Under the pieces are notes generated by a model, which ran no database searches, was not told where the DNA came from, and saw only the letters and a program-made list of their open reading frames with translations. DNA of 64,000 bases from Auricularia sp. M13 (lineage: Eukaryota; Basidiomycota; Agaricomycetes; Auriculariales; Auriculariaceae): the NCBI GenBank assembly GCA_037042915.1, contig CM073199.1, positions 2,976,001-3,040,000 of the forward strand, written 5' to 3'. Of the stretch, positions 22,269-53,431 are shown piece by piece (the first letter of the stretch is position 1; each line of letters starts with the position of its first letter). Position numbers and translations under genes: made by a program.

Positions 22269-25200
22269 ATGGCTCCTTTTGTGCTCAAGTTCAAGGTCGG
22301 TGGCCGGCGTAAATGCGCATATAAAAAAACTTATTTTATTTTATTTTACGACAGGGCAACCGGTCCTTTGTCGCGTTCCAGTCGATGGCCGACGCCGACG
22401 CGCTGACCAAGACGTGGAAGGTGTGCACCAAGGTCGCCCAGCACCTCGAGCAGGGCGCCCGGCTCGAGAACCTGTCCTGGCGGCTCTGGCACCTGCATAA
22501 CCTCATCGTCGAGGCCGACAACGCCAAGTCCAAGCGCGACTTCAAGAAGCTTTCCAAGAATATGGGCGACAAGCTGGACCGCGAGAAGGGCAGGTACGCA
22601 TATATTCTGCCCTCGTTGCCCAGCCCAGTCATCCAGTTCTGACCCCGACGTCCGCAGGAGCATCGAGGAACTGCCCGCGCCCGGCTTTAAGCCCACGCCC
22701 GCCCAGGAGAAGCTCCGCCAGCGCGCAGAGGAAAAGGAGCGCGCGCGCGAGGCCGTCAGCAACGGCACCGTCCCGCCCAAGGCTCATTACAACTACACTT
22801 TTTCAGTTGAGCCCGCCGCGGCCCCGCACACCGAGCGCAGGCCCAGCTTCGGCACCAGCGGCACCAAGTCACACAAGAAGGCCGGCGGAGCCCTCAGGAT
22901 GACCTCCGCGGACAAGGCGGCGACGACGGTCCGCTTCCCCGCGGTCTTCGGCGATTCGAGCTTTGAGCCGCACGCGCTGCTTTATTCGTCTACGGCGCAC
23001 TCAACCGCCACCGCCCGGACGTACGGCGAGGGAGCGCCGACGAACGCCGACGAGCGCGCGGCCGAGTTCGGCGTTGTCAGGCCAACGTTCGAGCTCGCGC
23101 TCGACGACCTGCTCTCCGACGGCCAGTCGCCCGAGGCCGGCGGCCACAACGCCATGCTCGACTCGCAGGCGACGCTCGTCGACGCCCACGCCATGTCCTA
23201 CGCCGACAGCGCCAGCCAGGCCAGCGGCTCCGGCTCGGGCGGCACGCCGCCCACCGCGAGCACCGAAACACACTTCGACTACGCGCCCTTCGCGTTCTAC
23301 AGCGCCCTGCACCAGCACGTGGTGTCCACCAGCCAGGCGTCAGCCTTCTCGCCACCCAACGCCGGCGCCACGTTTTCGCCATCGGCCACGGCCCACACCG
23401 GCTTCTCCTTCGGCTCCCCGCACGCATCTGGCCTCGGCCTGCAGATGAACGACGTCGACTGGGCGAGCCCGCTCAACCTCAACGTCTCCTACATGGACCC
23501 GCAGTCGCTGGAGCCCGCTGCCCAGGTACGAGAATTTTAGTTTGCTGTTACAGCCGTTTGCATAAAAACCGGAATCGCGTTGAAGCGTGAAAACGGCCCC
23601 TCAGGGCAGAACGAGCAGAGTGCGGGTCTCAATCTATTGCCTGAGGTTGTGCTTCAGGTCCCTCGGACGAAGTTGCACAATTTTCAGAGCAGTTTTTCCG
23701 CACTGCTGTTGCCTCTGCCCTCTGGCTGTTGTTGGGACCGTCGACTAATGTCGGTACAAAGTGGGGTTTGGTGCGCTGTGGGGCCGTTTTCAAGAGAAAA
23801 GCGATTCCGGTTCTTTTATGCGAACGGCTGTCGAGAGGTGGCACGGCAACTGACGCGCGCGAAACGCTCCTGTGTAGCCCGACACCGCCATGGAGCTGTT
23901 CCACGACGAGCCCCAGCACGAACTAAACAACCACAACAACAACGCCGACGATGCAGCGGAGCGCAGCCCGTCGCCGCTCGTCGCGCCCATGCCCAGCCCG
24001 GAGATCCCGCTCGCGCAGGTCAAGGCCGAGTCGCTCAAGGACGGCTCGACGTCGCCGTACGCCTACAACAACAGCAGCGGGAGTGGCAACGAGTACAATG
24101 CGTCCGCGGAGCCGTCGCCGCCGCCCCCGCCGCCGCCGCCGCCAATGCCGGCCGCGCGCCCGATCGCCGGGCGCAGCACGAACAACAGCGCGAGCACGTC
24201 GATGCCGCCGCCGGCCGCGCCGACGGGCGCGCGCCGCCAGCGCAGCGAGGACGATAGCGGTTACGAGGACAATGTGGGTGGGATGCGCACGCCCAGCGCG
24301 ACGGCCACGCCGCGCAACCCCGACGGCAAGACCGAGTGCTCGAACTGCGGCGCGACGCACACGCCGCTGTGGCGCCGCGGGCTTAACGACGAGCTTAACT
24401 GCAACGCGTGCGGGCTCTACTGCAAGCTGGTACGTTGCCGTTGCTGTCTTCTTCGTTTTGCGGCCCTGGCGCTGACGCTTCGTGTGATACCTTCCAGCAC
24501 AAGCGCCCGCGACCGAAGAACTTCCGCAACGGCCAGGACGGCGCGCGCGCGGGTGCCCGTGCGGGCGCTGGCTTCGTCGACGGCGGCGACGGCGGCCCTG
24601 CGGAGCCCGTCAGCTGCTATAATTGCCATACGACGACTACGCCGCTGTGGCGCAAGGACGAGGAGGGCCGGACGGTGTGCAACGCGTGAGTGTCCCTCAC
24701 TATTTCCGTCCCGTGCCGGCCGACGTCGGAGCGGCTGCTGACCCTTGCTTGCAGATGCGGACTGTATTCGAAGCTGCATGGCTCGTCGCGGCCCATGTCG
24801 ATGAAGAGCGAGTCGATTCGCAAGCGCGCGCGCCACGAGGGCGGCGCGGCGGCGACGCGGCGCTCGTCGGTGTCTTCGCGCCACCACGCGACGAATCCCG
24901 CCCGACGGCGGCGCTCGCCTACACCGCCTGCTCAACTGCCTGCTCCCCAGCAGCAGGTGCAGCCGATGAGCCCGCCGGTGATGCAGGTGCAGGCGCACGA
25001 CGTCGCAGAGACGTACAACGGCGTGCTCGACGCGAACGGGCGCATTAACCTCGGCGACCTCGACCCGCTCGAGGACGGGCTCGCGAGCCTCGGCATGAGC
25101 TTCGGGCCTGTCACTTACGAGCAGCACGTCACGTCCTCCGGCTCGAGCCAGCGGTACGACGTCCCGAACTACAACGCGGTCGAGAACCAGCAGGCGGCCG

Positions 25201-25682
25201 TGAGCCACCAGCAACAGCAGCAGATGAGCGACGAGCAGTACGCGCAGATGCTCTCGCAGGAGGTCGCGCAGAGCGCGTGGGCGCAACCTCAGGCCGGCCC
25301 GTCGCAGCAGCAGCAGCAGCAGGGGGAGGAGGCGCCGACGTTCGTGACGACCGTTAACTCGCCGCAGTCCAACAAGCGGCGACGGCTGAGCATGGACACC
25401 GCGTCGCAGCTCAGCTTCGCCGCGTGGGCAGGCGCAGGTGTGCCACTGCCCGACGGCTACCTCTACGGCCATGGCTACCACCCGCCGCTCAACTCGGCAG
25501 GCGGTGCGGTGCCGGAAAGCCCAGTCATGCACCCGCCGCTGAACTTGCCTGGCGGTGCCCTTCAGCAGCAGCACGACCAGCACGACCAGATGGACGGCCT
25601 CGACGGCCAGATGGACCAGATCGTCGACATGAACGCGTTCTGGGCCGACGAGGGCAGCAGCCTGTGGTGCAGCAGGGCGTAA
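22269..25682 (+). CDS. GATA-type transcription factor, AreA/Gaf1-like, two zinc fingers (copy A, complete, 933 aa)
   Basis: Exons 22269-22295, 22355-22593, 22658-23525, 23878-24429, 24498-24685 and 24755-25682 add to 934 codons including the stop. N-terminus: DUF1752 segment [24 protein letters not shown] (about residues 26-75), found in fungal nitrogen-regulatory GATA factors. The middle is Ser/Ala/Thr-rich, probably activating. Finger 1: C532, C535, C553, C556. Finger 2: C602, C605, C623, C626. Both have C-x2-C-x17-C-x2-C spacing with TPLWR; the basic tail is [19 protein letters not shown]. The C-terminus is Gln-rich. Such factors bind GATA sites in nutrient (nitrogen, sometimes iron) control; two fingers also occur in iron repressors, but DUF1752 and the lack of a Cys-rich linker favour the nitrogen type. 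Intron 3 is long (352 nt) because it holds a MITE. This is the only copy with exon 1 and a whole frame. Confidence 0.9.
23551..23830. mobile_element. MITE-like element in intron 3 of GATA copy A (280 bp)
   Basis: The ends read CAGCCGTTTGCAT.. and ..ATGCGAACGGCTG, imperfect terminal inverted repeats of about 50 bp; the inner parts (gaaaacggccc / gggccgttttc) also pair. TA flanks the left end and TC the right; both flanks are TA in copies B and C. This fits a Tc1/mariner-type non-autonomous element with a TA target. It has no coding capacity. Confidence 0.65.
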
Positions 25683-26916
25683 TCGGCTTGCAGCCTGCCC
25701 GTTCCCTCTCGTATTTTTGGTCTCGTCTACATCGCCAACCTACGATTTTATCTCGCCCGCGTCTCATCTTCGCATCTGTCGCGCTTCAAGTTATCCATTC
25801 GTGCTATCCTCGTCTTAACTGGGTTTTATTCTGGGTGTGTGGTGGTGGTGGTCGTTCTGCTTCTGCTTTCGCCGTTTGTTGTTGGCTCGTTCCCGCCTCT
25901 CGAACTTCGCTTTCCGGCGCGCGGCGCTGTTTTCTCCCCCGCCTCGACTTGCTGCATCTCTCGATCCGTGTCTCCGCCATCGCCTCTATCGTACCGCACC
26001 GCTCTTGCTCTGGTCCGCTCGCCTCTACGACCTGTCACGAAGCAACCTCGGTTCTCGCTCACCGCGTGCGGCCGTATTGCGCCGCCATACCATACACTCC
26101 CCGCGTTGCCAATCCGCGCACGCGCGCCCTCGCCTCCGATCCGCATTCACCCTCGCCTTGACACCGCACACCCGGCCTGCGGAGGACATTCGAGTCCCCC
26201 TCGCCGGTACTCACACAGCCGCACACAGCGGCTGTTCCCTTACGACGTTTCTCATCTCTCTCGTCTCATCTTCTCGCTCTCGAAACGCCAATAAACCGTG
26301 ATCTTTCCCGCCGCCTGTACCCGTAGCGATGTAGACCATCATCTCTCCGCCCTATCTCTTTCCCCAGATACTTGCCCAATACCGCTCTCCCGCCCCACCC
26401 GGTACGCCCCGCTGCGTCCCTCGCATAGAGGGGCACAGGGAGGGCGCGCCGGGTCTGCATTGCTGACTCTGCCCTATTTTTTCTCTTTTTTGTTTGCTTG
26501 CTACTGTCTCGTCTCGAAGGAATGAATGAAGAAGATGCGCAGTGCGCCGCGTCTCGTTTCTCGCTGTATACATGCCATGTGTCCGATCGCAAGTGTTGAA
26601 CTTCAAGCTGCTCGGTGCAATCTCGCTACCGTGTTTGTCGGGATCCTGAGGAATCGACCTCAATCGTGCTCGCCGCGGAGTGCAGTTTACGTCCGCGCAG
26701 GACGCTCTCAGAGTTAGTCCGCGGCTCCCCCGTATCGTACCGCAGCCCCCGTCATTGTGTTTGGGCTGCGACACGACCCTTGGGCGTGCACGAACGGGTC
26801 CCAGTTGCAGCAGGGCGCGAGTAGCTGCAGCCAGCCGGATCTTGCGCGAAGCTCGCACACGTTGCAGCGCGCCTGCCTATCCGGGCCCGACCCTGAGCAG
26901 TTCCTGCGAACGTGGG
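25683..26916 (+). other. 3' flank of GATA copy A (3' UTR and downstream)
   Basis: Pyrimidine-rich DNA starting with the GATA 3' UTR and shared by all three copies. A possible polyadenylation signal AATAAA lies near 26290 (gccaataaaccg). It carries the single 23-nt unit cctccgatccgc.. (26133-26155) that marks the recombination point described for copy B. No gene is supported; the open frames are shadows. Confidence 0.55.
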
Positions 26917-27892
26917 GTGCGTGACTGACATGGGGTACTGTGCACTTGCATGCCGAGATGCACCGAGCCGTGTGAAACGCGCCGTGCCCGAGGACAGGGA
27001 GAGACGGAGATAGAGTGACCGATAAGAACGTTTTTCGAGGAAAGTTGCAAGTAGAAATTGTTGGTCCGTCAGACAACAAAACTTCATGGTCTCTTTTCCT
27101 ATTGCTCGCTCTGAGGCGCCCGGGCGCCCGTCTCGTGGGCACCCGGGCGCGCAGTTCAAAGGATTATGTACATGACCGGGAACACGGTGCTGGCTACGAT
27201 TTTCCCACTCTCCGGCGCCGTCGTGCAAATCCCGTGCAAGTGCAAGTCAGTGCCTGCTGATGGACTTGAGCTGCAGCTCACCTGATCTGTCTGCAAGCCG
27301 TCAGAGTCGCAATAAGCGCTGGCGAGCAGAAAATGCGCAAATATGTCTGAAATGCAAAGTCAGATTGAGAGTGCGGGGCAGAAACATCTGAGACTCACCG
27401 ACGCGGGCGAGCTGGACGCATCCAGAGGCGACATATGCGCCGGACGACGAGAAAAGTCACGCTCCGCGCCGGCGCTTGTGCCGGCGGGACGGATGCGGTC
27501 AAGACGGTCGTATTGAACACAAAACTAGCTATTTCGCAAAGAGCGCGGTAGGGCGCGGGATGGCGATTGGAACGTGGGAATGTATACATAATCCGCATAT
27601 GAAAACGACGAGGGGTGGACGGTGGGAGTGCCGGTGCGGGGAGCGCGCGATGGGGAGGATATCGCGACAACCGCGGGCACGACTCGCGAACGGGGAGGAG
27701 GACGGGGACGAGAAGTGGGCGCTTATGTAGAGGTAGATGGCGCGAGCTCGTGTGCGCGAGGACGTAGCGCGGAACGGCGAGATGCGCGCTGGCTGCCCGA
27801 TCTCCGTCGCCGCCGATACAAAAATCGACGCTGCGCGACCAGCTCGCCGCCAGCGCTGCCCCCGCGCATCTCGCGTAAGTCACGGACATCAG
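26917..27892. other. Start of spacer A, no gene seen
   Basis: This part follows the junction with the GATA flank. It includes a short GC palindrome near 27118-27152 (ggcgcccgggcgcc.. and gggcacccgggcg). From about 27400 it contains a diverged duplicate of the last coding exon of the minus-strand gene (see 27893-29736), with a period near 298 nt. Confidence 0.45.
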
Positions 27893-29736
27893 CTAATCTC
27901 GGCCCACGCACCATTTCGACGCTCCTGCGAGGTTTTCAAAACTCGCGTTTTGCGCGGTGTCGTCGCAGTCGGATTTTCTGCACGTCGACCCAATGAGATC
28001 CGCTGCAAAAAAGCGTGACTAGGTGGTAGATGCATGTCATATGACGTACTTACCACACTCGGAGACGAGGTAGGCGCGCGAAATCGCGAGGCAGCGGCCG
28101 GAAGGGTCGCGGTCGTGACAAAAATCGAAGCCCCGCCGCGACGCTGGTCTCGGCTCGAGCTTCGTGCGTCGCGGGACGGTCGTAGGCATGAAATGAGTCA
28201 GGGCGACGCACCATTTCGACCTCCCGCGCACGTTTCTGAAACGACGCGTTTGCGCGATTTCCATTACGCTCGAATTAAATCGGCGTATCCGGAGCGATTC
28301 CTGCACTGCAGAATCGTGAGCAAGCATCAAACACATTCATATCAAGCGCACATACCATGCTCAACGAGACGAGGTCGCAGCGCTCGAGCTCGGCGGTCCG
28401 CGGCTCGTCGGTGCTGCGGCTCGGCGCTTGCAAAAACGGCGGTTGCGCAACGTCCTGGCAGCGGCACACCTAAAATCCGCGATGGGCAACGTCCTACCAT
28501 CGGAGCGACGCTGCCCTCACCCCCAGATGGCCGTGGGACGCGAATGGCTGCAAAACCGCGGTCAGCTTCAACGCGTTACTAATAATAGCAGACACGTACC
28601 AGCAGCAGCAAGCGCATAGTGGAGCACGGGCAGTGGTAGAGCGCATGTACCGCGTCCTTCTTGCGCCGCGAGAAGTCGCGAGGTGCAGCGGCGGGCGAGA
28701 AATCGGCCGGTTGCTCTCGCCGGAGTGGACAACCGCGACCCCGCTCCCGGGCGGGCGGTGGCGATGCGCACGCCCGCGACCGCTCCGTGAGCATTGAGGG
28801 CATGCCACGCGGCGCATGGAGCGTTGAGGTACGCTCGCGGGATGAAGAAAGCTGCAAAAAAAAATTGTTCAGACCGAGACGACATTGCGGAGGCACCTTC
28901 TTACCAGTCGCGCCGCAGAAAGCCCGGGGAGCATGCCCAGCACGTCAGTGCTGCATCCCCCATCCCCGCGTATTCCATGCAGAGTCCGTGTGCTGGCGTG
29001 CATCCCGCGGCACGGCCGGGAGAGCTCGCGAGGTCGTACTGCGCGACTGTGGACGAGAATCTGCAAGATGAGAACCGTCAGCGACTGCAACGCGGAATAC
29101 AAAGCTGCAAGAACGTACCAAAAGCGCAGCGCCGCCTCCAACATTGGAGGACTGCGCGTGCCGATGGTGGGGTCGGGGAAGCAGCAGACCGCGCGCTGGA
29201 GACTGCACAAAATGCCGTTAGCCCGGCGTCCACAAGGTAGCACCAGACTGAGCACGTACCCCGTGAGAAGCCGGCCATAGGCGCAGTGTTGGCGGCGTAT
29301 AAGGGAAGCTGGGTGTGGGTGCGAACGACGCGGAGCGCGTCGGCGGATGGTGGGCGAGCGGAAAGAGTCTGCGGCAAACATGAGCAAAGAACGCGCAAAA
29401 CGAAAGCGCCGACGATCAGCTCACCTCCGCGAGTTTGAGCACAGCGCCAGCGCGTCGTAGACTGCAGCGTTCCGCAGCCAGCACGCATGAGAGCGTCGAC
29501 GCGGGGGAGGAAGCGCCGAGCGATGGCGCAACCGCAGACGATGAGCGCAGCAATGCGACGAGGGGGTCGACGCGTCGGTTTTGAGCTGAACTGCGCGCAG
29601 CCTGGGTTTTGAGTCTGGCTGTAAGGAATGAAGAGCGAAACCGGCGCGTGACAAAACGGAAATTTTTTGCCGTGCGGGGTGTCGTGACTTCTCTCCGCGA
29701 GCCGAGTGCGGTGCTCCCGGGCTCGATCATTTCCAT
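27893..29736 (-). pseudogene. Nine-exon gene of unknown function, spacer A copy (one-base frameshift)
   Basis: Eight introns have canonical ends, lengths of 51-58 nt and mostly clear branch points: 29424-29369, 29259-29203 (CTAAC), 29118-29061 (CTGAC), 28904-28852, 28599-28548 (CTGAC), 28520-28470, 28355-28301, 28053-28003. The ATG at 29736 (MEMIEPGST) starts the model and the stop is at 27893. Exon 3 (29202-29119) has one base more than the spacer B copy (gtcgggg vs gtcggg near 29176), which shifts the frame. No family is recognised: the product would be Arg/Ser/Ala-rich with scattered Cys. Start position is the weakest part. Confidence 0.45.
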
Positions 29737-32003
29737 GGAGTGCTTCCCACGCTCGTGAATCCATTGAACCAATATACATGCCTTGTAAAGCGATATTCCG
29801 ACGCCGCAGCGCCGAAGCGATATGGAAGGCACGCATTTGGCCTACCATCATCGTCATCTATGCAACGTCACCGCCCTCCGAGTTCTCTGGAGCACAGTCG
29901 GCGGGAGGGCTTTGATCTGTCACCTCTACGTCGTACGACGCTCAGAGGAGTGTAAGTGCTCAATATTTTCACGTCAATCGAGAATGCAGACACTGGCGCC
30001 GGCGGCGACTCTGCGCCGCAACGTGGACTACCGAAGTCGGCCAATCACGGGATGCAGTCACCGGCGCAGCAGTGAGAAAGCGCATCAGTGGCTGTGCTTG
30101 TGTTTGGAATGACACAGCGACCGCTTGAACTCGCTGGAAGTTCGAAGTTCTGAGCGGGAAGAGCAGTTTCAAGCTCCGTTCAGCATGCATACCTCGTCGG
30201 AAGACGAGCAGACGCAGTCTCACGCTCATATTCTGCATTAATCATACGGATACCTACAGCGTAGAGCTGCACGCAATGCGATCTCCTCAAAAAAATTGCA
30301 GTAACTTCGCCAGCGACGCAAACAACGTTGTGGGAAAGACAGCCGAAAACGCACTGGGCGCGAACGCCGCAGTACAGTCACAGCCTTGCCACATGGAGCG
30401 GTCCAGAGCAGCTCCATTGATAGAGCTGTGTGTCATTTGGCGGCGAAGAGACGCGAGCGGAAACCGCTCAGCAGACGAAAACGCGGTTTCCATTCGAACC
30501 GCTGACGACTCCCGGGTTCCCACGTTACAGCCATCATTACTGACTCACTGATTGCTGATCGTGATGCGCCTAGAGCGCGAGAAGCGCGCTGCGCCGTCGG
30601 GAAACGCGACCGCCGCTGGGATGGGGTTTTTGTGCATACAGAGACGATACCCCTCGCTCCCCTGCTAACTCATCCTCTGTTGTGGTCACGTGACCTTATA
30701 TTAGGCGTCTATATGCAAGAGAGAGCGTGCGCGATGCGGGACAAGTCCAGAATGCCAAACTCAGTCTGGAAATTTAAATCGCAGTCTGGGATTCACGGGC
30801 GCTTATTTCGCTCAAATACCATCGAATATATTAAGCGCCCAAGATGTGAGGCGGGGAAAGGTCGGCTTGGTGCAAGAAACGGGTGGGATTGCGGGCACGG
30901 GACCAGGAAGGCGTGTTCCAAACTCCGCTCAGCATGGACAACGCCCGCACTCGGTCGGCCTCCGCGGCCGCGGGCAGCGTTCCCGGCCCTCAGCTAAGCA
31001 AAAGTCATGTTAAATGACGTTTTCAGCTTGATTTGCGTAAAATCGAAGTGGGACGAGGCCTGGAAACGCGCCGGAGATCGAGCAACCGATTGAGCCATTC
31101 AGCGAAAACGGCGGGTATCGCGTTGACTCCTCGTTTCACGGCCATCAGCACTGTATTAGAAGCATGATGGCGCGTAGATCCCGCCGAGATCGAGCGGTTA
31201 CATCGCGTCGGTTGGCGATACGCGCAGAATGCTCATCCGGGGGTGTATGGGACCGCTGGCACCCACCCTCGCCAGTACGGGCGCTTATTTGGGCTCAGCC
31301 AGACGAGTACATGCGCTGACTAAGCAATTACGGCGTCTGGGGGCTTGCGGGCGACGAAATTCTCATTCTCACGTGCGGGAGCGGGCGGGAAGGCACCGTG
31401 CAAACTCCGCTCGTGACAGCGACAACAGCCCAGAACTCGCCGCCAACGGCCGGCGCTTGCGTCTCTCCTACGTCACATGCTGCGCATGGATGACGGCATT
31501 TAGATTCTGCATAGAAACGAAAGAAATAACGCGGAAATGAGGTGTGGAACGAGATCTGCGTACGCGGCGCGTTTCGCGCGCTGTTCAGTTCTCCTTGGTT
31601 TCCCGGGCTTCTCAGCGCACGGCCATCAATCTCCGGTCGATCACGCGTCAGAACCGCCGATGATACGCGCAGGAAACGCGCTTGAGCGGTGCCCGAGCTC
31701 TAGCACCCTTTCTGCGTTCAGCGGGCATAGGGGTACTCCCCGCGCTCTCTCTCTGCTGAACAGGCGCTTAATTAAAATCTGGATGGTGGGTCAACTTGCG
31801 CGTGCAAAAAATTGGGCAGGGGACGCGTCGGGCGGCGCAGAATGGGCGTTGCGAGCGGTTGCCGGGGGTGGCTAAATGCGTTGCACAGGCACACCGGGGC
31901 CTCGGCACCCGAATCGTTGTGCTTCCCACGGAATCCATCGTACGATCCGCCGCGTGTAAGCCTGCGCAGCTACCGCCCGGAATAGATACGGGCGCGGCGA
32001 GGG
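29737..32003. other. Spacer A middle, no gene supported
   Basis: 2.3 kb between the minus-strand gene and the plus-strand secreted-protein gene. It probably contains the divergent promoters of both. Only short overlapping frames are present. The corresponding part of spacer B is 42975-45243. Confidence 0.45.
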
Positions 32004-32009
32004 TATAAA
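32004..32009 (+). promoter_or_regulatory. TATA box of the secreted-protein gene (spacer A)
   Basis: TATAAA in gagggtataaag, exactly 100 nt before the ATG at 32104, followed by a pyrimidine-rich leader (cttcccctccctttcc). Position and leader fit a fungal core promoter. Confidence 0.6.
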
Positions 32010-32103
32010 GTCGATGCGGAACGCCTCACTCTCACCATCCGACCTTCCCCTCCCTTTCCGTTCTTCCTTCCTCCCGTCCTCAACACCTCGCTCATGCTTC
32101 TCA

Positions 32104-33204
32104 ATGCAGTTAACGACCTCGATCCTGCTCTCGACGATCTGCGCTGACCGTCCGTCGCTGGCAGACCGAGCTGCGTGCGTGCAGTTCGTACCCTCGGCGG
32201 GCGTCGTCGCCGTTCCCAGCGTCGTCCGACCTCGTCGTCAATCGTACAGGTAAATGGCATCCATTCCCTAACGCTATATACTACCGATGGCTGATTCTGC
32301 CGTCGATTGGACGCAGGGTACGCCTGTTGGCATGCAAGTCGTCCGATCGCGAGTGCGCATGCACAGCGCTGGCCGTCGCCGCCGCCATGCTCGTCGCTAC
32401 ATTCGGTGAGTCCCCTATTTGAATTACCACGATGAGCCGCGCTGATACATCATCATCTCCTGGAATTCAGATCAGGAGACGGGCATCGCAGTCGACGGCG
32501 CGTTCGCTCAATCCGCGCCGTCCGATCCAACGACCGTCAACACAAGCAAGTACGTGTCTTTTCGCATTTTCCGTTCAGCCTATCCTTGGCGCTGATATCC
32601 CGATACATCAGGCTCATCCACACGACGCGGAACGGGTGGGCGTGCAAAATGTCCGACGTGTTTATTGATAACTACTCTACGGTACGTACACATCCTCCCC
32701 GTCATTTTTCTGCCCATCGAACACATCCAATCCACTCCCTGCACCCCTGCGCACGTCCAGCGGCCGGAATTACGCGCGCTACGCATTCTTGCCGTTGCTG
32801 CGTGTCCGAGTCGGTCGGGTCGGCCAAAGGCTGTATCACCCGAACCGCGCCTCGACACGCGCGCTGCGTGCGATCTGTCGATGCACGATGATCGTGCGAG
32901 CGACCGGCGGCCGTCCGAGCGTCTGCGCGAAGTTCGTGAGCCCGATGCGCTCGCCGGACGACACCTATTTATTCCTCGAAATCCGCGCTTCGGGCGGTCG
33001 GGGGTGATGCAGTGGATATCCCTGAGTCATATCATGAGCGCGGAATCGCGGAATTACGAGCGCACCGTCTGGGGTGCATCTCGATGCTCCGGACACCATC
33101 CGAGTCGGCGGCGTCCCCGCCGACTCGGGGCGTTATTCCTTCACGGGGGTCATCGAGGAACACGAGGCCTCTGTGAAAATGCGCTCGAATGCCGCGATTG
33201 TTGA
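32104..33204 (+). CDS. Predicted secreted or signal-anchored protein of unknown family (275 aa), spacer A copy
   Basis: Exons 32104-32249, 32317-32405, 32471-32549, 32612-32681 and 32761-33204 sum to 276 codons with stop. Introns of 62-79 nt have GT..AG ends and phases that match. The start MQLTTSILLSTICA looks like a signal peptide with an AXA-like end. A second hydrophobic stretch (TALAVAAAMLVATFG) spans the exon 2/3 join. The segment DQETGIAVDGAFAQS follows. Exon 5 is Arg-rich and ends CENALECRDC, with paired Cys. An in-frame ATG at 32014 lies only 10 nt after the TATA box and is rejected. The duplicate at 45344 keeps the same frame. Function unknown; a small secreted protein is a guess. 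Confidence 0.55.
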
Positions 33205-41131: not shown

Positions 41132-42974
41132 CTAATCTCGGCCCACGCACCATTTCGACGCTCCTGCGAGGTTTTCAAAACTCGCGTTTTGCGCGGTGTC
41201 GTCGCAGTCGGATTTTCTGCACGTCGACCCAATGAGATCCGCTGCAAAAAAGCGTGACTAGGTGGTAGATGCATGTCATATGACGTACTTACCACACTCG
41301 GAGACGAGGTAGGCGCGCGAAATCGCGAGGCAGCGGCCGGAAGGGTCGCGGTCGTGACAAAAATCGAAGCCCCGCCGCGACGCTGGTCTCGGCTCGAGCT
41401 TCGTGCGTCGCGGGACGGTCGTAGGCATGAAATGAGTCAGGGCGACGCACCATTTCGACCTCCCGCGCACGTTTCTGAAACGACGCGTTTGCGCGATTTC
41501 CATTACGCTCGAATTAAATCGGCGTATCCGGAGCGATTCCTGCACTGCAGAATCGTGAGCAAGCATCAAACACATTCATATCAAGCGCACATACCATGCT
41601 CAACGAGACGAGGTCGCAGCGCTCGAGCTCGGCGGTCCGCGGCTCGTCGGTGCTGCGGCTCGGCGCTTGCAAAAACGGCGGTTGCGCAACGTCCTGGCAG
41701 CGGCACACCTAAAATCCGCGATGGGCAACGTCCTACCATCGGAGCGACGCTGCCCTCACCCCCAGATGGCCGTGGGACGCGAATGGCTGCAAAACCGCGG
41801 TCAGCTTCAACGCGTTACTAATAATAGCAGACACGTACCAGCAGCAGCAAGCGCATAGTGGAGCACGGGCAGTGGTAGAGCGCATGTACCGCGTCCTTCT
41901 TGCGCCGCGAGAAGTCGCGAGGTGCAGCGGCGGGCGAGAAATCGGCCGGTTGCTCTCGCCGGAGTGGACAACCGCGACCCCGCTCCCGGGCGGGCGGTGG
42001 CGATGCGCACGCCCGCGACCGCTCCGTGAGCATTGAGGGCATGCCACGCGGCGCATGGAGCGTTGAGGTACGCTCGCGGGATGAAGAAAGCTGCAAAAAA
42101 AAATTGTTCAGACCGAGACGACATTGCGGAGGCACCTTCTTACCAGTCGCGCCGCAGAAAGCCCGGGGAGCATGCCCAGCACGTCAGTGCTGCATCCCCC
42201 ATCCCCGCGTATTCCATGCAGAGTCCGTGTGCTGGCGTGCATCCCGCGGCACGGCCGGGAGAGCTCGCGAGGTCGTACTGCGCGACTGTGGACGAGAATC
42301 TGCAAGATGAGAACCGTCAGCGACTGCAACGCGGAATACAAAGCTGCAAGAACGTACCAAAAGCGCAGCGCCGCCTCCAACATTGGAGGACTGCGCGTGC
42401 CGATGGTGGGGTCGGGAAGCAGCAGACCGCGCGCTGGAGACTGCACAAAATGCCGTTAGCCCGGCGTCCACAAGGTAGCACCAGACTGAGCACGTACCCC
42501 GTGAGAAGCCGGCCATAGGCGCAGTGTTGGCGGCGTATAAGGGAAGCTGGGTGTGGGTGCGAACGACGCGGAGCGCGTCGGCGGATGGTGGGCGAGCGGA
42601 AAGAGTCTGCGGCAAACATGAGCAAAGAACGCGCAAAACGAAAGCGCCGACGATCAGCTCACCTCCGCGAGTTTGAGCACAGCGCCAGCGCGTCGTAGAC
42701 TGCAGCGTTCCGCAGCCAGCACGCATGAGAGCGTCGACGCGGGGGAGGAAGCGCCGAGCGATGGCGCAACCGCAGACGATGAGCGCAGCAATGCGACGAG
42801 GGGGTCGACGCGTCGGTTTTGAGCTGAACTGCGCGCAGCCTGGGTTTTGAGTCTGGCTGTAAGGAATGAAGAGCGAAACCGGCGCGTGACAAAACGGAAA
42901 TTTTTTGCCGTGCGGGGTGTCGTGACTTCTCTCCGCGAGCCGAGTGCGGTGCTCCCGGGCTCGATCATTTCCAT
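41132..42974 (-). CDS. Nine-exon gene of unknown function, spacer B copy (open, 469 aa)
   Basis: Same architecture as 27893-29736 but with the frame open throughout. Introns are 42662-42607, 42497-42441, 42357-42300, 42143-42091, 41838-41787, 41759-41709, 41594-41540 and 41292-41242. The coding sum is 470 codons with stop. Exon 6 is only 27 nt. The 3' acceptor of intron 7 is a tandem tgcagtgcag; only the second AG keeps the frame. Readable segments are DFSRRKKDAVHALYHCPCS, CRCQDVAQPPFLQAPS, GFDFCHDRDPSGRCLA and the end GASKWCVGRD. SKWCV occurs twice because the last exon is a diverged duplicate of the one before. No family recognised. Confidence 0.5.
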
Positions 42975-45243
42975 GGAGTGCTTCCCACGCTCGTGAATCC
43001 ATTGAACCAATATACATGCCTTGTAAAGCGATATTCCGACGCCGCAGCGCCGAAGCGATATGGAAGGCACGCATTTGGCCTACCATCATCGTCATCTATG
43101 CAACGTCACCGCCCTCCGAGTTCTCTGGAGCACAGTCGGCGGGAGGGCTTTGATCTGTCACCTCTACGTCGTACGACGCTCAGAGGAGTGTAAGTGCTCA
43201 ATATTTTCACGTCAATCGAGAATGCAGACACTGGCGCCGGCGGCGACTCTGCGCCGCAACGTGGACTACCGAAGTCGGCCAATCACGGGATGCAGTCACC
43301 GGCGCAGCAGTGAGAAAGCGCATCAGTGGCTGTGCTTGTGTTTGGAATGACACAGCGACCGCTTGAACTCGCTGGAAGTTCGAAGTTCTGAGCGGGAAGA
43401 GCAGTTTCAAGCTCCGTTCAGCATGCATACCTCGTCGGAAGACGAGCAGACGCAGTCTCACGCTCATATTCTGCATTAATCATACGGATACCTACAGCGT
43501 AGAGCTGCACGCAATGCGATCTCCTCAAAAAAATTGCAGTAACTTCGCCAGCGACGCAAACAACGTTGTGGGAAAGACAGCCGAAAACGCACTGGGCGCG
43601 AACGCCGCAGTACAGTCACAGCCTTGCCACATGGAGCGGTCCAGAGCAGCTCCATTGATAGAGCTGTGTGTCATTTGGCGGCGAAGAGACGCGAGCGGAA
43701 ACCGCTCAGCAGACGAAAACGCGGTTTCCATTCGAACCGCTGACGACTCCCGGGTTCCCACGTTACAGCCATCATTACTGACTCACTGATTGCTGATCGT
43801 GATGCGCCTAGAGCGCGAGAAGCGCGCTGCGCCGTCGGGAAACGCGACCGCCGCTGGGATGGGGTTTTTGTGCATACAGAGACGATACCCCTCGCTCCCC
43901 TGCTAACTCATCCTCTGTTGTGGTCACGTGACCTTATATTAGGCGTCTATATGCAAGAGAGAGCGTGCGCGATGCGGGACAAGTCCAGAATGCCAAACTC
44001 AGTCTGGAAATTTAAATCGCAGTCTGGGATTCACGGGCGCTTATTTCGCTCAAATACCATCGAATATATTAAGCGCCCAAGATGTGAGGCGGGGAAAGGT
44101 CGGCTTGGTGCAAGAAACGGGTGGGATTGCGGGCACGGGACCAGGAAGGCGTGTTCCAAACTCCGCTCAGCATGGACAACGCCCGCACTCGGTCGGCCTC
44201 CGCGGCCGCGGGGCAGCGTTCCCGGCCCTCAGCTAAGCAAAAGTCATGTTAAATGACGTTTTCAGCTTGATTTGCGTAAAATCGAAGTGGGACGAGGCCT
44301 GGAAACGCGCCGGAGATCGAGCAACCGATTGAGCCATTCAGCGAAAACGGCGGGTATCGCGTTGACTCCTCGTTTCACGGCCATCAGCACTGTATTAGAA
44401 GCATGATGGCGCGTAGATCCCGCCGAGATCGAGCGGTTACATCGCGTCGGTTGGCGATACGCGCAGAATGCTCATCCGGGGGGTGTATGGGACCGCTGGC
44501 ACCCACCCTCGCCAGTACGGGCGCTTATTTGGGCTCAGCCAGACGAGTACATGCGCTGACTAAGCAATTACGGCGTCTGGGGGCTTGCGGGCGACGAAAT
44601 TCTCATTCTCACGTGCGGGAGCGGGCGGGAAGGCACCGTGCAAACTCCGCTCGTGACAGCGACAACAGCCCAGAACTCGCCGCCAACGGCCGGCGCTTGC
44701 GTCTCTCCTACGTCACATGCTGCGCATGGATGACGGCATTTAGATTCTGCATAGAAACGAAAGAAATAACGCGGAAATGAGGTGTGGAACGAGATCTGCG
44801 TACGCGGCGCGTTTCGCGCGCTGTTCAGTTCTCCTTGGTTTCCCGGGCTTCTCAGCGCACGGCCATCAATCTCCGGTCGATCACGCGTCAGAACCGCCGA
44901 TGATACGCGCAGGAAACGCGCTTGAGCGGTGCCCGAGCTCTAGCACCCTTTCTGCGTTCAGCGGGCATAGGGGTACTCCCCGCGCTCTCTCTCTGCTGAA
45001 CAGGCGCTTAATTAAAATCTGGATGGTGGGTCAACTTGCGCGTGCAAAAAATTGGGCAGGGGACGCGTCGGGCGGCGCAGAATGGGCGTTGCGAGCGGTT
45101 GCCGGGGGTGGCTAAATGCGTTGCACAGGCACACCGGGGCCTCGGCACCCGAATCGTTGTGCTTCCCACGGAATCCATCGTACGATCCGCCGCGTGTAAG
45201 CCTGCGCAGCTACCGCCCGGAATAGATACGGGCGCGGCGAGGG
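42975..45243. other. Spacer B middle, no gene supported
   Basis: Near-identical to 29737-32003, with single-base insertions near 44212 and 44480. It contains only short frames. Confidence 0.45.
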
Positions 45244-45249
45244 TATAAA
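45244..45249 (+). promoter_or_regulatory. TATA box of the secreted-protein gene (spacer B)
   Basis: TATAAA 100 nt before the ATG at 45344, same context as in spacer A. Confidence 0.6.
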
Positions 45250-45343
45250 GTCGATGCGGAACGCCTCACTCTCACCATCCGACCTTCCCCTCCCTTTCCG
45301 TTCTTCCTTCCTCCCGTCCTCAACACCTCGCTCATGCTTCTCA

Positions 45344-46444
45344 ATGCAGTTAACGACCTCGATCCTGCTCTCGACGATCTGCGCTGACCGTCCGTCGCTG
45401 GCAGACCGAGCTGCGTGCGTGCAGTTCGTACCCTCGGCGGGCGTCGTCGCCGTTCCCAGCGTCGTCCGACCTCGTCGTCAATCGTACAGGTAAATGGCAT
45501 CCATTCCCTAACGCTATATACTACCGATGGCTGATTCTGCCGTCGATTGGACGCAGGGTACGCCTGTTGGCATGCAAGTCGTCCGATCGCGAGTGCGCAT
45601 GCACAGCGCTGGCCGTCGCCGCCGCCATGCTCGTCGCTACATTCGGTGAGTCCCCTATTTGAATTACCACGATGAGCCGCGCTGATACATCATCATCTCC
45701 TGGAATTCAGATCAGGAGACGGGCATCGCAGTCGACGGCGCGTTCGCTCAATCCGCGCCGTCCGATCCAACGACCGTCAACACAAGCAAGTACGTGTCTT
45801 TTCGCATTTTCCGTTCAGCCTATCCTTGGCGCTGATATCCCGATACATCAGGCTCATCCACACGACGCGGAACGGGTGGGCGTGCAAAATGTCCGACGTG
45901 TTTATTGATAACTACTCTACGGTACGTACACATCCTCCCCGTCATTTTTCTGCCCATCGAACACATCCAATCCACTCCCTGCACCCCTGCGCACGTCCAG
46001 CGGCCGGAATTACGCGCGCTACGCATTCTTGCCGTTGCTGCGTGTCCGAGTCGGTCGGGTCGGCCAAAGGCTGTATCACCCGAACCGCGCCTCGACACGC
46101 GCGCTGCGTGCGATCTGTCGATGCACGATGATCGTGCGAGCGACCGGCGGCCGTCCGAGCGTCTGCGCGAAGTTCGTGAGCCCGATGCGCTCGCCGGACG
46201 ACACCTATTTATTCCTCGAAATCCGCGCTTCGGGCGGTCGGGGGTGATGCAGTGGATATCCCTGAGTCATATCATGAGCGCGGAATCGCGGAATTACGAG
46301 CGCACCGTCTGGGGTGCATCTCGATGCTCCGGACACCATCCGAGTCGGCGGCGTCCCCGCCGACTCGGGGCGTTATTCCTTCACGGGGGTCATCGAGGAA
46401 CACGAGGCCTCTGTGAAAATGCGCTCGAATGCCGCGATTGTTGA
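45344..46444 (+). CDS. Predicted secreted or signal-anchored protein of unknown family (275 aa), spacer B copy
   Basis: Exons 45344-45489, 45557-45645, 45711-45789, 45852-45921 and 46001-46444. The predicted protein appears the same as that at 32104-33204: signal peptide MQLTTSILLSTICA, hydrophobic stretch, Arg-rich C-terminus ending ECRDC. The frame is kept although single-base indels occur elsewhere in the spacers. Confidence 0.55.
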
Positions 46445-46963
46445 GCGCGCGCGGCGGTGGAGTCGGTGCTCGTCCGAATCGCGAGCCGAAGTTTTCGAGC
46501 TCGCAGGAATTTTCCGCGCGCGCTGACACTTCGTGAGCGGCATATTGGGCATGTGGGCATGGCCTGGCTTACGTTGATGAGCCGGGATTTTGCGCGGTGG
46601 TGGCGATCGCGAGATTTGGGTCGGCGGGGCCATCCAAGGTCGCCAAAGTCGAACCGCGTGTTGCCCGCGCAGTTGAACGGCGCGCGTTGAGTCGAGTGAA
46701 CCCTATGATCGTCCCACGCCCATTTATAGCGGCTCCTGGGCCCCTATCGCAAGCGCGCGACACACGGGATAATGACCTAACCACAACAAGTCGTCAGCAA
46801 ACGAGCAAAGCGAATTGAGTAAATTGGCGCATACCTATCGAAAGCCTGCATCGAGGAGATCCTAACGCGAACTCCGTGAGCGAATTGGATTTTTCTGCGG
46901 GCTCTACAACAAATTCGGTCAGAAAGAACTTTTAGATAAAAGTTATCAGATTAAGATGGGAAA

Positions 46964-47699
46964 GGTACGCACTTGAAGCCCCAACTCGCGCGCACACGCT
47001 GATATAAATTTCGTAGGATATAATTAACGGGTTCGGCGGCGAGAAGAGATTACTGTCCGGCCTTCACCGGCCAGCGCGCAGAGTTTCTTCGCGGTCGCGG
47101 ACTCGGGCCTACTGCTTCAAACAAGTCGAAGGGGTCGGAGGTGTACGGGCCGAGGTCCAGCGCGGTGCCTGGGTCAAGAAAAGGTCAGCTTCACGTTGCA
47201 ATCGAGCCAGGCTAACGAATTGCGACTTATCCAGATTGTTTTCAAATTTCAAATTTAAGGGTACGTACCGAAAGCCCTAACTCGCGCGCACACGCTGATA
47301 TAATTTGCATAGGATATAATTAACGGGTTCGGTGGCGAGAAGAGAATCCTGTCCGGCCTTCACCGGCCAGCGCGCAGAGGTTCTTCGCGGCCGGGGACTC
47401 GGGCCTGCACCCTCAAACGAGCGGACAAGGTCGGGGCCATAAGACTCGAGCTCTAGCGCGGCGCCTGTGGCAAACAAAGGTCAGCTTCATGTTGCAGTCG
47501 CGCAATGCTAACGAGTCGCGACTTGTACAGATTGTTTTCATATTTCAAATACAAAGGTACGTACGTGTAGCCCTCATTGGTGCGCACGCGCTCATATAAT
47601 TTGTAGCGCATATAATTGAGGCGTTCGAGGGCGGGGAAGGAGTCTTGAGCGGCCGTCGCCGGCCAGCGCGCAGAGCTTGGGTCGTGGCCGCGGACTCGT
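46964..47699. repeat. 296-nt tandem repeat with intron-like signals (spacer B)
   Basis: Copy of 33725-34460, with units starting at 46964, 47260 and 47556. One substitution is visible in the second unit (gtaccgaaagccc vs gtaccgtaagccc). Confidence 0.7.
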
Positions 47700-47993: not shown

Positions 47994-49141
47994 CCTTTGT
48001 CGCGTTCCAGTCGATGGCCGACGCCGACGCGCTGACCAAGACGTGGAAGGCGTGCACCAAGGTCGCCCAGCACCTCGAGCAGGGCGCCCGGCTCGACAAC
48101 CTGTCCTGGCGGCTCTGGCACCTGCACAACCTCATCGTCGAGGTCGACAACGCCAAGTCCAGCGCGACTTCAAGAAGCTTTCCAAGAACATGGGCGACAA
48201 GCTGGACCGCGAGAAGGGCCGGTACGTATACATTCTGCCCTCGTCGCCCAGTCATCCAGTTCTGACCTCGACGTCCGCAGGAGCATCGAGGAACTGCACG
48301 CGCCCGGCTTCAAGTCCACGCCCGCCCAGGAGAAGCTCCGCCAGCGCGCAGAGGAAAAGGAGCGCGCGCGAGGTCGTCAGCAACGCCACCGTCCCGCCAA
48401 ACGCCCATTACAACTACACTTTTTCTGTCGATCCCGCTGCGGCCCAGCACACTGAGCGCAGGCCCAGCTTCGGCACCAAGTCCCACAACAAGTCCGCGCT
48501 CAGGATGACGTCCGCGCACAAGGCGGCGACGACGGTCCGCTTCCCCGCCGTCTTTGGCCATTCGAGCTTCGAGCTCCAGGCGCTGCTTTATTCGTCCATG
48601 ACCCACTCCACCGCCACCGCCCGGACGTACGGCGAGGGCGCGCAGACGACCGCCGACGAGCGCGCGGCCCGAGTTCAGCGTTGACAGGCCGATGTTCAAT
48701 CTCGCGCTCGACGACCTGCTCGCCGACGGTCACCCTCTCGCCGCCGCGGGCCACAACGCCAAGCTCGACTCCGACTCCACGCTCGTCGACGACCACGCCA
48801 TGTCCTACGCCGACAGCGCCAGCCAGGTCAGCGTCTCCGGCTCTGGCGGCACCCCGCCCACTGCCAGCACCGAGACGCACTTGGACTCTGCGCCGTTCGC
48901 GTTCTATAGCTCCCTGCCAGCGGCCACGCCCCAGCCTTCTCACCACCCAACGCCGGCGCTCCGTGTTCTCCAATGGCCACGGCCCACACCGGCTTCTCCT
49001 TCGGCTCCCCGCACGCATCTGGCCTCGGCCTGCAGATGAACGACGTCGACTGGGCGAGCCCGCTCAACCTCAACGTCTCCTACATGGACCCGCAGTCGCT
49101 GGAGCCCGCCGCCCAGGTACGAGAATTTGAGTTTGCTGTTA

Positions 49142-49234
49142 CAGCCGTTTGCATGAAAAAACCGGAATCGCTTTTCTCTTGAAAACGGCCCCACAGGGTT
49201 TGTAGCGATTCCGGTTTTTTCATGCAAACGGCTG
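49142..49234. mobile_element. Collapsed MITE in GATA copy C (93 bp)
   Basis: Same as 35903-35995: perfect 31-bp inverted repeats, TA on both sides. Confidence 0.75.
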
Positions 49235-50095
49235 TAGAGAGGTGGCACGGCAACTGACGCGCGCGAAACGCTCCTGTGTAGCCCGACACCGCCATGGAGC
49301 TGTTCCACGACGAGCCCCAGCACGAACTAGACAACACCAGCAACAACAACGACGACGCGGCGGAGCGCAGCCCGTCGCCGCTCGTCGCGCCCATGCCCAG
49401 CCCGGAGATCCCGCTCGCGCATGTCAAGGCCGAGTCGCTCAAGGACGGCTCGACGTCGCCGTACGCCTACAACAACAGCAGCGGGAGTGGCAACGAGTAC
49501 AATGCGTCCGCGGAGCCGTCGCCGCCGCCTCCACCGCCGCCGCCGCCGATGCCGGCCGCGCGCCCCATCGCCGGGCGCAGCACGAACAACAGCGCGAGCA
49601 CGTCGATGCCGCCGCCGGCCGCGCCGACGGGCGCGCGCCGCCAGCGCAGCGAGGACGATAGCGGTTACGAGGACAATGTGGGTGGGATGCGCACGCCCAG
49701 CGCGACGGCGACGCCGCGCAACCCCGACGGCAAGACGGAGTGCTCGAACTGCGGCGCGACGCACACGCCGCTGTGGCGCCGCGGGCTTAACGACGAGCTC
49801 AACTGTAACGCGTGCGGGCTCTACTGCAAGCTGGTCAGTCCCTCCCGCCGCCGTGGTCTTCTTTGCTTTCCGGCCCTGACGCTGACGCTTCGTGTGATAC
49901 CTTATAGCACAAGCGCCCGCGGCCGAAGAATTTCCGTAACGGCCAGGACGGCGCGCGCGCGGGCGCCCGTGCGGGCGCTGGTTTCGTTGATGGCGGCGAC
50001 GGCGGCCCTGCGGAGCCCGTCAGCTGCTATAACTGCCATACGACGACTACGCCGCTGTGGCGCAAGGACGAGGAGGGCCGGACGGTGTGCAACGC

Positions 50096-51230
50096 GTGAG
50101 TCTCTTTTCATCCCTCTTCCGTCCATCCTTCTTCCGTGCACCTCCGGCTGTCCCGTCATCATTGTGATGATGGGACTTGGGTTGCAAACCGTACCCGTGC
50201 TGCAGACCATGTACGGACGCGGGTGCCGTAGCGTGGTCGTTGCATTCCCAGGCTGCGACGCGCTCTCTACGGGTCCAGCGCCCCCGTACCCGCGGTGACG
50301 TGAGCTGTACGGCTCTCTGCCCAGGCTGCGAAACGTCTTGAATCGCCGCGGCGCAGATAAGGCCATTGCGGTCTTTTAGGCGCCGTAACACCGTGACGGT
50401 CGTTTCAAAGCCGAATTTTATGGGTGCAACGCCGTACTGTCCACACTCTGAGAGCTGGACGTACCCGAGGTGTACGGCTGCCCGCCCTGGCTGCGAGGCG
50501 CTTGAACTGCCGCCATGGCGCGGACAAGGCGCTCGGGCACCTTGATACCGCAACGGCCGTGAAACGGGTCGTTTCAAGGCCGTATCTTACGGTCCAGCGA
50601 GTCAACGCTCCGAGTACGGCCGTGGCACTGCGGGTGCGGCTTGCAGCCACACTGTCCCTCTTCCCGTCCCCCATCTCCAACTCGTTTTTCCATCCCCCAT
50701 GTTTTACGCCCATGTTTTACGGTTCCTGCGCCCGTGTCTTCTACGCTCTCAGAGCTGGACGTATCTACGCTGGCGTGAGCTGTACGGCTCTCCGCTCAGG
50801 CTGCGGGGCACTTGAACCGCCTCGGCGCGGGCAAGGCGCGTAGGCGCCGTATTACCGGCCCTTTAAGGCCGTATTTTACTGGCTCAGCACCGTAACGTCC
50901 TCGCTCTGAGAGCTGGACGTAGCCGCGGTGATGGGAGCTGTACGACTGCCTGCCCAGGCTGCGAGTGGCTTGAGCCGCTGCGGCGCGGGCAAGGCTAATT
51001 ACGGCCGTATTTTGGGAGTCCCGAGCCCGTGCCGTCCACGCTCTCAGGGCTTAACGTACCCGCGGTGACGCGAGCTGTACCCGTGGCAATTGCGGGTACG
51101 CGTTGCAACCCAACCAGTCCTCTTCCATCCCCCATCTCCGTCCGACCCGTGCTTCCATCCTCCCACTTCCGGCCAACCGTGCCGGCCGACGTCGGAGCGG
51201 CTGCTGACCCTTACTTTGCTTTGCTTGCAG
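50096..51230 (+). repeat. Expanded last intron of GATA copy C
   Basis: Same 1,135-nt intron and decayed repeats as 36857-37991. Confidence 0.7.
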
Positions 51231-52163
51231 ATGCGGACTGTACTCGAAGCTGCACGGCTCGTCGCGGCCCATGTCGATGAAGAGCGAGTCGATTCGTAAG
51301 CGCGCGCGCCACGAGGGCGGCGCAGCGGCGACGCGGCGCTCGTCGGTGTCTTCGCGCCACCACCACGCGACGAACCCCGCGCGACGGCGGCGCTCGCCTA
51401 CGCCGCCCGCGCAGCTGCCCGCCCGCAGCAGCAGGTGCAGCCGATGAGCCCGCCGGTGATGCAGGTGCAGGCGCACGACGTCGCAGAGACGTACAACGGC
51501 GTGCTCGACGCGAACGGGCGCATTAACCTCGGCGACCTCGACCCGCTCGAGGACGGCCTCGCGAGCCTCGGCATGAGCTTCGGGCCTGTTACTTACGAGC
51601 AGCACGTCACGTCCTCCGGCTCGAGCCAGCGGTACGACGTCCCGAACTACAACGCGGTCGAGAACCAGCAGGCGGCCGTGAGCCACCAGCAGCAACAGCA
51701 GCAGTTGAGCGACGAGCAGTACGCGCAGATGCTCTCGCAGGAGGTCGCGCAGAGCGCGTGGGCGCAGCCTCAGGCCGGCCCGTCGCAGCAGCAGCAGCAG
51801 CAGCCGGAGGAGGCGCCGACGTTCGTGACGACCGTCAACTCGCCGCAGTCCAACAAGCGGCGACGGCTGAGCATGGACACCGCGTCGCAGCTGAGCTTCG
51901 CCGCGTGGGCAGGCGCAGGCGTGCCACTGCCCGACGGCTATCTGTACGGCCATGGCTACCACCCGCCGCTCAACTCGGCGGGCGGCGCGGTGCCCGAGAG
52001 CCCGGTCATGCACCCGCCGCTGAACTTGCCTGGCGGTGCCCTTCAGCAGCAGCACGAGCAGCACGACCAGATGGACGGCCTCGACGGCCAGATGGACCAG
52101 ATCGTCGACATGAACGCGTTCTGGGCCGACGAGGGCAGCAGCCTGTGGTGCAGCAGGGCGTAA

Positions 52164-53431
52164 TCGGCTTGCAGCCTGCCCTTTCCCTCTCGTATCTTTG
52201 GTCTCGTCTACATCGCCGACTTTTATCTCGCCCGCGTCTCATCTTCGCATCTGTCGCGCTTCAAGTTATCAATTCGTGCTATCCTCGTCTTAACTGGGTC
52301 TTATTCTGGGTGTGTGGTGGTGGTGGTCGTTCTGCTTCTGCTTTCGCCGTTTGTTGTTGGCTCGTTCCCGCCTCTCGAACTTCGCTTTCCGGCGCGCGGC
52401 GCTGTTTTCTCCCCCGCCTCGACTTGCTGCATCTCTCGATCCGTGTCTCCGCCATCGCCTCTATCGTACCGCACCGCTCTTGCTCTGGTCCGCTCGCCTC
52501 TACGACCTGTCACGAAGCAACCTCGGTTCTCGCTCACCGCATGCGGCCGTATTGCGCCGCCATACCATACACTCCCCGCGTTGCCAATCCGCGCACGCGC
52601 GCCCTCGCCTCCGACCCGCTTTCACCCTCGCCTCCGATCCGCATTCACCCTCGCCTTGACACCGCCCGGAGGACATTCGAGTCCCCCCCGCCGATACTCG
52701 GGCAGCCGCACACAGCGGCTGTTCCCTTACGACGTTTCTCATCTCCTCTCTCGTCTCATCTTCTCGCTCTCGAAACGCCAATAAACCGTGATCTTTCCCG
52801 CCGCCTGTACCCGTAGCGATGTAGACCATCATCTCTCCGCCATATCTCTTTCCCCAGATACTTGCCCAATACCGCTCTCCCGCCCCACCCGGTACGCCCC
52901 GCTGCGTCCCTCGCATAGAGGGGCACAGGGAGGGCGCGCCGGGTCTGCATTGCTGACTCTGCCCTATTTTTTCTCTTTTTTTTGTTTGCTTGCTACTGTC
53001 TCGTCTCGAAGGAATGAATGAAGAAGATGCGCAGTGCGCCGCGTCTCGTTTCTCGCTGTATACATGCCATGTGTCCGATCGCAAGTGTTGAACTTCAAGC
53101 TGCTCGGCGCAATCTCGCTACCGTGTTTGTCGGGATCCTCAGGAATCGACCTCAATCGTGCTCGCCGCCGCCGCGGAGTGCAGTTTACGTCCGCGCAGGA
53201 CGCTCTCAGAGTTAGTCCGCGGCTCCCCCGTATCGCACCGCAGCCCCCGTCATTGTGTTTGGGCTGCGACACGACCCTTGGGCGTGCACGAACGGGTCCC
53301 AGTTGCAGCAGGGCGCGAGCAGCTGCAGCCAGCCGGATCTTGCGCGAAGCTCGCACACGTTGCAGCGCGCCTGCCTATCCGGGCCCGACCCTGAGCAGTT
53401 CCTGCGTTCCTGGATTTCCCGGCCAACGTGG
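52164..53431 (+). other. 3' flank of GATA copy C, most diverged flank
   Basis: Contains two adjacent 23-nt units (52608-52630 and 52631-52653) where A and B each have one. It also differs from A and B at several places after them (e.g. tcccccccgccgatactcggg; a triplicated gccgcc near 53166). Homology to A and B ends at aacgtggg, which here is preceded by an 18-nt segment absent from A and B. This is probably the ancestral downstream flank of the locus. Confidence 0.65.

Follow-up and report, generated by a model that had tools for sequence, protein, structure and literature searches.

As listed in Table 1, a gene for a GATA transcription factor of Auricularia sp. M13 exists in three direct tandem copies (A, B, and C), identified by BLAST in a window of 64,000 nucleotides that corresponds to C7:2976001-3040000 (contig C7). 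The copies are separated by two spacers of 7.8 kb, each representing a repeat element without coding signal (E), and the order of the locus is G-E-G-E-G, with G denoting the GATA gene. The matches are too long and too similar for the GATA and spacer repeats to have arisen by chance. The best overall explanation, to which a probability of about 0.68 is given, is that copy B was probably made by unequal exchange, that the E family marks arrays of the form G-(E-G)n, and that a short GATA protein may be derived from copies B and C. The genome searched comprises 52,096,326 bases in 14 contigs; the counts of arrays are lower bounds, and the scoring covers the best candidates.

The origin of the third copy can be read from 215 diagnostic sites, at which A differs from C and a base is present in all three copies. 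Copy B is identical to C at all 192 sites to the left of position 39,383 and identical to A at all 23 sites from 39,396 onward. No substitution separates B from C in 4,627 aligned bases, and only 1 separates A from B in the 8,607 aligned bases of the 3' part and spacer, along with a few indels of 1-2 bases. Copies A and C share only 88.4%, 94.6%, and 95.5% identity in three stretches aligned by BLAST, and several indels also distinguish them. It can be seen that A and C form an older, diverged pair and that B is a recombinant of both. A clean mosaic with one switch is expected of unequal exchange between two repeats, and this is the pattern of copy B. Together with the divergence of A and C, the mosaic suggests that a single unequal exchange within the 3'-UTR (untranslated region) of the GATA gene changed G-E-G into G-E-G-E-G.

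Several statements of the initial annotation are refined by this result. The three GATA copies that it had reported do lie in tandem; they are not three equal recent duplicates, with A and C diverged and B recombinant. The recency assigned to the amplification applies to copy B, as a single step from two copies to three. The described unit of 13.2 kb agrees with the offset of the 5' edges from B to C (13,239 bp) and not with that from A to B (12,390 bp), and the units are unequal. Intron 5 is longer by about 1.07 kb in B and C, and intron 3 by about 190 bp in A. The observation that the two spacers differ at only a handful of positions was borne out by the counts above.

Copy A is intact in a six-exon model with exon limits predicted from the sequence, and the GATA_AreA domain (PF08550) and two GATA fingers (PF00320) lie in one open reading frame set. 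This full set is found neither in B nor in C: exon 1 is absent from both, and their exons 2-3 share six indels (-1, -2, -9, -6, +1, -16), of which 4 change the frame. The earlier description of two 5'-truncated copies is therefore correct for this region and incomplete for the remainder, as the fingers are open in both copies. In copy B, exons 4-6 form an open frame of 553 amino acids, with two in-frame insertions of 3 bases and an initial ATG in the context GCCATGG. Between A and B, exons 4-6 contain 44 synonymous and 11 non-synonymous differences (dS 0.12, dN 0.009, omega 0.07, Nei-Gojobori), compared with an omega of 0.35 for exons 2-3 of A and C by the same method. Exons 4-6 of B are thus open and constrained. 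Among the best 120 of 269 protein matches of copy A, the first was EXIGLDRAFT_707952 of Exidia glandulosa with 784 bits and the next had 403; for another gene of the same genome, a protein of A. subglabra is 80% identical.

Additional features of the GATA gene were also observed. A MITE-like inverted repeat (miniature inverted-repeat transposable element) occupies intron 3 of copy A (23553-23831), is shorter in B (35902-35997) and C, and has short matches at C4:3981218-3981550. The intron within finger 2 measures 69 bp and is expanded by 1.07 kb in B and C; for this expansion, only one 69-bp match was found elsewhere in the genome, on C1. At C8:2798148-2798749 (minus strand), two matches to GATA fingers are separated by about 520 bp and perhaps represent a second two-finger GATA gene. 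An identity of the array gene as an iron repressor of the Fep1/SRE type was rejected. PMC4992955 gives these repressors four cysteines (C-X5-C-X8-C-X2-C) between the fingers; these four are missing here, and a lone cysteine lies between the finger zinc ligands in GLYCKL of copy A.

The two unrecognised genes that the array had been thought to duplicate are not supported by the sequence of the spacer. No three-base periodicity of substitutions was found against three relatives, and among 780 combinations of window, strand, and frame the maximum z was 3.2, with 0.26% above 3, in a test run without positive control from which windows with gaps or less than 60% identity were dropped. The most conserved part of E, its core, displays CACGTG, CAAACTCCGCTCG, GGGCGCTTA, and TATAAA, followed by a pyrimidine-rich stretch. 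The core points toward the downstream GATA copy, its TATA/E-box block is conserved across units, and E, as judged by these motifs, carries a promoter-like block. Downstream of the core, an intron-like unit of 65 nt that includes motif m1 (ATACATCATCATCTCYTGGA) is predicted. No target duplication was seen at the left boundary of E. Copies of E with 88% identity (C7:2949734-2956383) and with 70-75% identity (C11 and C7) are also present. A search of the window and 14 loci with Rfam, which covered whole units of the arrays on C11, C7:2.16, C9:3.05, C4, and C1, found no rRNA match, and ribosomal DNA (rDNA) was rejected as the identity of the units searched. As a separate observation, loci L047, L048, and L049 (C1:281001, C7:2244540, C8:829742) are about 99% identical over 8 kb, a stretch that extends beyond 11 kb between those of C1 and C7; each contains a sequence related to the E core as well as a frame of 397 amino acids that looks F-box/LRR-like.

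Searches of the genome indicate that the GATA array belongs to a larger family. With one mismatch allowed, motif m1 gave 51 matches and motif m2 (TGTGCCCGTTGTTGTAC) 96, compared with 0 and 2 for the backwards controls, and a search with the E core gave 41. Together these matches mark ten regular arrays, most of whose units measure 8.4-13.2 kb, and a possible eleventh at C9:3.40 Mb that is less regular. The core can be aligned between units from the window, C11, C7:2.16, C9:3.05, C4, and C1 and with the single copy of locus L011, and more weakly with C9:3.40. The arrays of C6:2.02, C7:0.84, C7:3.38, and C14 are defined by one motif of 17 bases, and sequence was inspected in a 2.5-kb piece of C14, where similar motifs appear by eye in the same order. 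Since about ten arrays of similar unit size share E sequence, the GATA array is no isolated case. Contig C14 (86,453 bp) itself has m2 ten times, at spacings of 8.4-8.8 kb, along nearly its whole length.

The genes carried by the arrays are different. One unit was inspected in each of seven arrays, and in 5 of the 6 with an identified open reading frame (ORF) the cargo lies downstream of the core on the same strand, 2.75-4.7 kb from the TATA box. The last 90 or so residues of the C4 palmitoyltransferase were not found within the unit by tblastn, and its frame of 498 amino acids alone had no Pfam match. The C11 cargo looks amidohydrolase-like but gave no convincing match in Pfam, NCBIfam, or PDB, and was left unnamed and excluded from the strand count. 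The order of genes and elements is most evident on C9, where six Med12 matches, all of those that the search gave (3038577, 3050273, 3060018, 3069763, 3079506, 3089214), have five E cores between them (3045158, 3054883, 3064628, 3074371, 3084126). The three GATA copies alternate just as strictly with two E cores. In the arrays where all copies can be listed (GATA and Med12), genes thus outnumber elements by one (n+1 to n). The C11 array is consistent with G-(E-G)n, as the first 196 bp of the stretch preceding its first core are the end of the cargo region (196/196).

Table 1. Features of the GATA locus (window positions) and arrays with E sequence in the genome.
Feature	Position	Strand	Units and spacing	Remark or cargo
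GATA copy A, intact, 933 aa	22269-22295, 22355-22593, 22658-23525, 23878-24429, 24498-24685, 24755-25682	+		model
Part of copy A common to B and C	22365-26908	+		exon 2 to 3' flank; BLAST
Spacer element E1	27017-34459	+		no coding signal
Promoter-like core of E1	31300-32120	+		most conserved part; TATAAA 32004-32009
Intron-like 65-nt unit with m1	32406-32470	+		GTGAGT...CTGAT...CAG; predicted from sequence
Tandem repeat at E1 end	33722-34459	+		296 bp, 2.5 copies
Junction stretch E1/copy B	34460-34754	+		relatives on C5, C2, C3
GATA copy B, mosaic	34755-40145	+		left = C, right = A; exons 2-3 broken
Open frame of copy B, 553 aa	36055-36594, 36669-36856, 37992-38925	+		both fingers
Intron expansion, ~1.07 kb	36866-37937 (B), 50105-51176 (C)	+		within finger 2, B and C only
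Exchange interval in B	39383-39395 (A 26146-26158, C 52621-52633)			3'-UTR, beside 23-bp tandem repeat of C
Spacer element E2	40254-47698	+		near-identical to E1
Promoter-like core of E2	44540-45360 (C7:3020540-3021360); TATA box 45244	+		
GATA copy C	47994-53406	+		exons 2-3 broken as in B
Window array			2 units, 13.24 kb	GATA
C11 array	C11		2 units, 10.29 kb	
C7:2.16 array	C7:2.16 Mb		7 units, 10.57-10.59 kb	dual-specificity phosphatase, E 5.9e-13
C9:3.05 array	C9:3.05 Mb		5 units, 9.73-9.76 kb	Med12 N-terminal domain, E 8.6e-25
C4 array	C4:3.61 Mb		4 units found, spacings 9.70, 9.64, 25.3 kb	palmitoyltransferase, residues 2-654 of 746-aa A. subglabra protein (tblastn)
C1 array	C1:0.45 Mb		2 units, 8.40 kb	2OG-Fe(II) oxygenase, E 4.8e-16
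C6:2.02 array	C6:2.02 Mb		4 units, 10.67 kb	
C7:0.84 array	C7:0.84 Mb		7 units, 9.3-9.7 kb	
C7:3.38 array	C7:3.38 Mb		4 units, 10.25 kb	m2 with one mismatch
C14 array	C14		10 units, 8.4-8.8 kb	m2

The order G-(E-G)n suggests how such arrays may have begun. If gene and element had simply been duplicated together in tandem, E would also stand at one outer end, and a process of insertion and duplication fits better. E would reach each locus while the local gene is directly duplicated, for instance through a molecule that carries E and a gene piece and recombines with that gene; alternatively, E might arise where the two copies of a duplicated gene meet. With homologous gene copies on either side of E, more rounds of unequal exchange, as well as gene conversion, would then be possible. 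The E-GATA junction also exists on C5, C2, and C3 with 78-92% identity to the window and 98-99% among these copies, which suggests that the fusion has been copied to other places and probably predates the present array. Copies B and C, possibly transcribed from E, would yield an N-terminally shortened two-finger GATA protein, which could compete with the full-length factor. Should this be true, strains would differ in GATA copy number, and the short protein may oppose the full factor in an edible mushroom. A broader and more speculative proposal, which we hold only tentatively, is that the E family consists of promoter-bearing, intron-like non-coding elements that would install themselves at single-copy genes by duplicating the gene on both sides of the element (G-E-G), after which they would drive unequal exchange again and again. 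Such elements might represent a portable amplification module, or a selfish element that uses homology of host genes instead of a transposase, and might yield shortened, dominant-acting versions of GATA and Med12.

Several observations weigh against the explanation by unequal exchange and an E family. The remaining differences between units are indels of 1-2 bases, mostly in short runs, and copy B differs from its neighbors by one substitution in about 13.2 kb apart from short indels. A loop in the assembly graph would leave the same mosaic pattern as an exchange: the true locus could be G-E-G, through which the assembler looped once too often at the similar GATA 3' ends. The read type of the assembly also bears on this, as the abstract and results of PMC12113221 give PacBio HiFi and its methods and its own Table 1 give Nanopore reads and NECAT, which leaves the error profile of the reads uncertain. 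Against an artefact, like arrays elsewhere in the assembly contain 2 to 10 units with substitutions between them; for seven copies of the C7:2.16-Mb array compared over about 6.3 kb, the 21 pairs show between 1 and 17 substitutions each. In the C11 pair, no substitution was counted over 8,518 bases, and near-identity alone cannot separate real from false units. On balance, an artefactual third copy is considered unlikely. Concatenation of haplotypes is also unlikely, with 1 substitution in 8,607 bases between the spacers compared with the heterozygosity of 2.34% stated for Auricularia sp. Qinling M13 in the same paper. On the side of the E family, many m1 and m2 matches fall outside arrays, L047 and L049 are without the TATA stretch, and the right end of E was not reached, with near-identical C1 and C7 copies aligning over more than 11 kb. 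In addition, the identified frames of the C9:3.40 unit are pieces of DDE_1 and a Tc5-type transposase on the opposite strand. With regard to a short GATA protein, copy C has lost one C from a run at 51422, so that its frame stops after 314 amino acids with both fingers retained, and the 3'-UTR divergence is 1.7% versus a dS of 0.12 in exons 4-6. This small difference suggests that gene conversion has probably acted on the GATA copies, and part of the reason for the low omega may be copying from the functional gene.

Whether B and C are mere pseudogenes, carried along by chance with the repeat and without a role, was weighed on the same data, and this is a serious possibility that falls somewhat short of even odds. 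The missing exon 1, the four frame-changing indels of exons 2-3, the further one-base loss in copy C, and the GATA pieces scattered on C5, C2, and C3 all agree with it. A neutral copy would show many more non-synonymous changes than copy B, whose 553 codons of exons 4-6 remain open at an omega of 0.07 with insertions that keep the frame; recent conversion from A could also explain this. As for E itself, Helitrons are known to form head-to-tail copies and to contain gene pieces, and E could be a Helitron or similar rolling-circle transposon with captured gene pieces in head-to-tail multimers. The genome does contain 51 matches to Helitron_like_N, and dispersed copies of related segments with 98-99% identity exist. 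However, none of these matches lies within the listed arrays, the closest ones lying some 21 kb away from the C5 copy and some 51 kb away from the C7:2.16-Mb array, and the GATA and Med12 genes apparently each occupy their own locus. No helicase match was found in or beside the arrays, and the identity as a Helitron was rejected as quite improbable.

Outside the array, the window contains a LINE-type (long interspersed nuclear element) open frame of 1,820 amino acids (12162-17624, plus strand) with PF03372 endonuclease/exonuclease, PF00078 reverse transcriptase, and a sub-threshold zf-RVT match, as well as a degenerate GC-rich minisatellite with periods of 27 bp and 274-301 bp (10059-11474). 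Flanking open frames were found at 1778-3355 (minus strand, listerin N-terminal domain), 58262-59701 (minus strand, F-box-like, below the cut-off), and 61839-63368 (plus strand, NST1). An insertion of 850 bp in locus L026 on C5 (2915-3767) recurs genome-wide, often in pairs about 3.46 kb apart, which suggests that it is probably a long terminal repeat.

Comparison with known systems places the GATA array among several types of repeats. No tandem arrays sharing such an element were recognised in the literature searched, with subscription journals and preprints outside its coverage; changes of gene dosage via tandem arrays are already well known. Compared to AreA-type GATA factors of Agaricomycetes, copy A is alike in its N-terminal GATA_AreA domain and two fingers, and B and C, open only from exon 4 on, are unlike. 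Arrays produced by unequal crossing over likewise have direct repeats, a mosaic middle copy, and near-identical units; here, a non-coding element is shared between copies of unrelated genes in several arrays. Macrosatellites with a gene per unit (D4Z4/DUX4) also consist of kilobase tandem units, each with a transcription-factor gene or piece of one, and differ in that the present arrays share the non-coding part and the genes vary. Helitrons carrying gene pieces (PMC4289320) resemble the arrays in the association of repeats with gene pieces in a mushroom, whereas here helicase matches are absent from the arrays and G-(E-G)n stands at the gene's own locus. In yeast, transcription from E-pro reportedly promotes unequal recombination between sister chromatids in the rDNA (PMC3616922). 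Like the arrays here, the yeast rDNA consists of tandem units about 10 kb long, each with a non-coding, promoter-like block of the Pol II type; in E, this is the conserved TATA/E-box block as judged from sequence. Unlike the rDNA, the present arrays occupy several loci with different genes, and the units searched gave no rRNA match. If the proposed role of E is true, a dispersed non-coding element that recurs in arrays with unrelated genes would be a natural system in which to ask whether ordinary genes can be converted into unstable arrays by a non-coding promoter.

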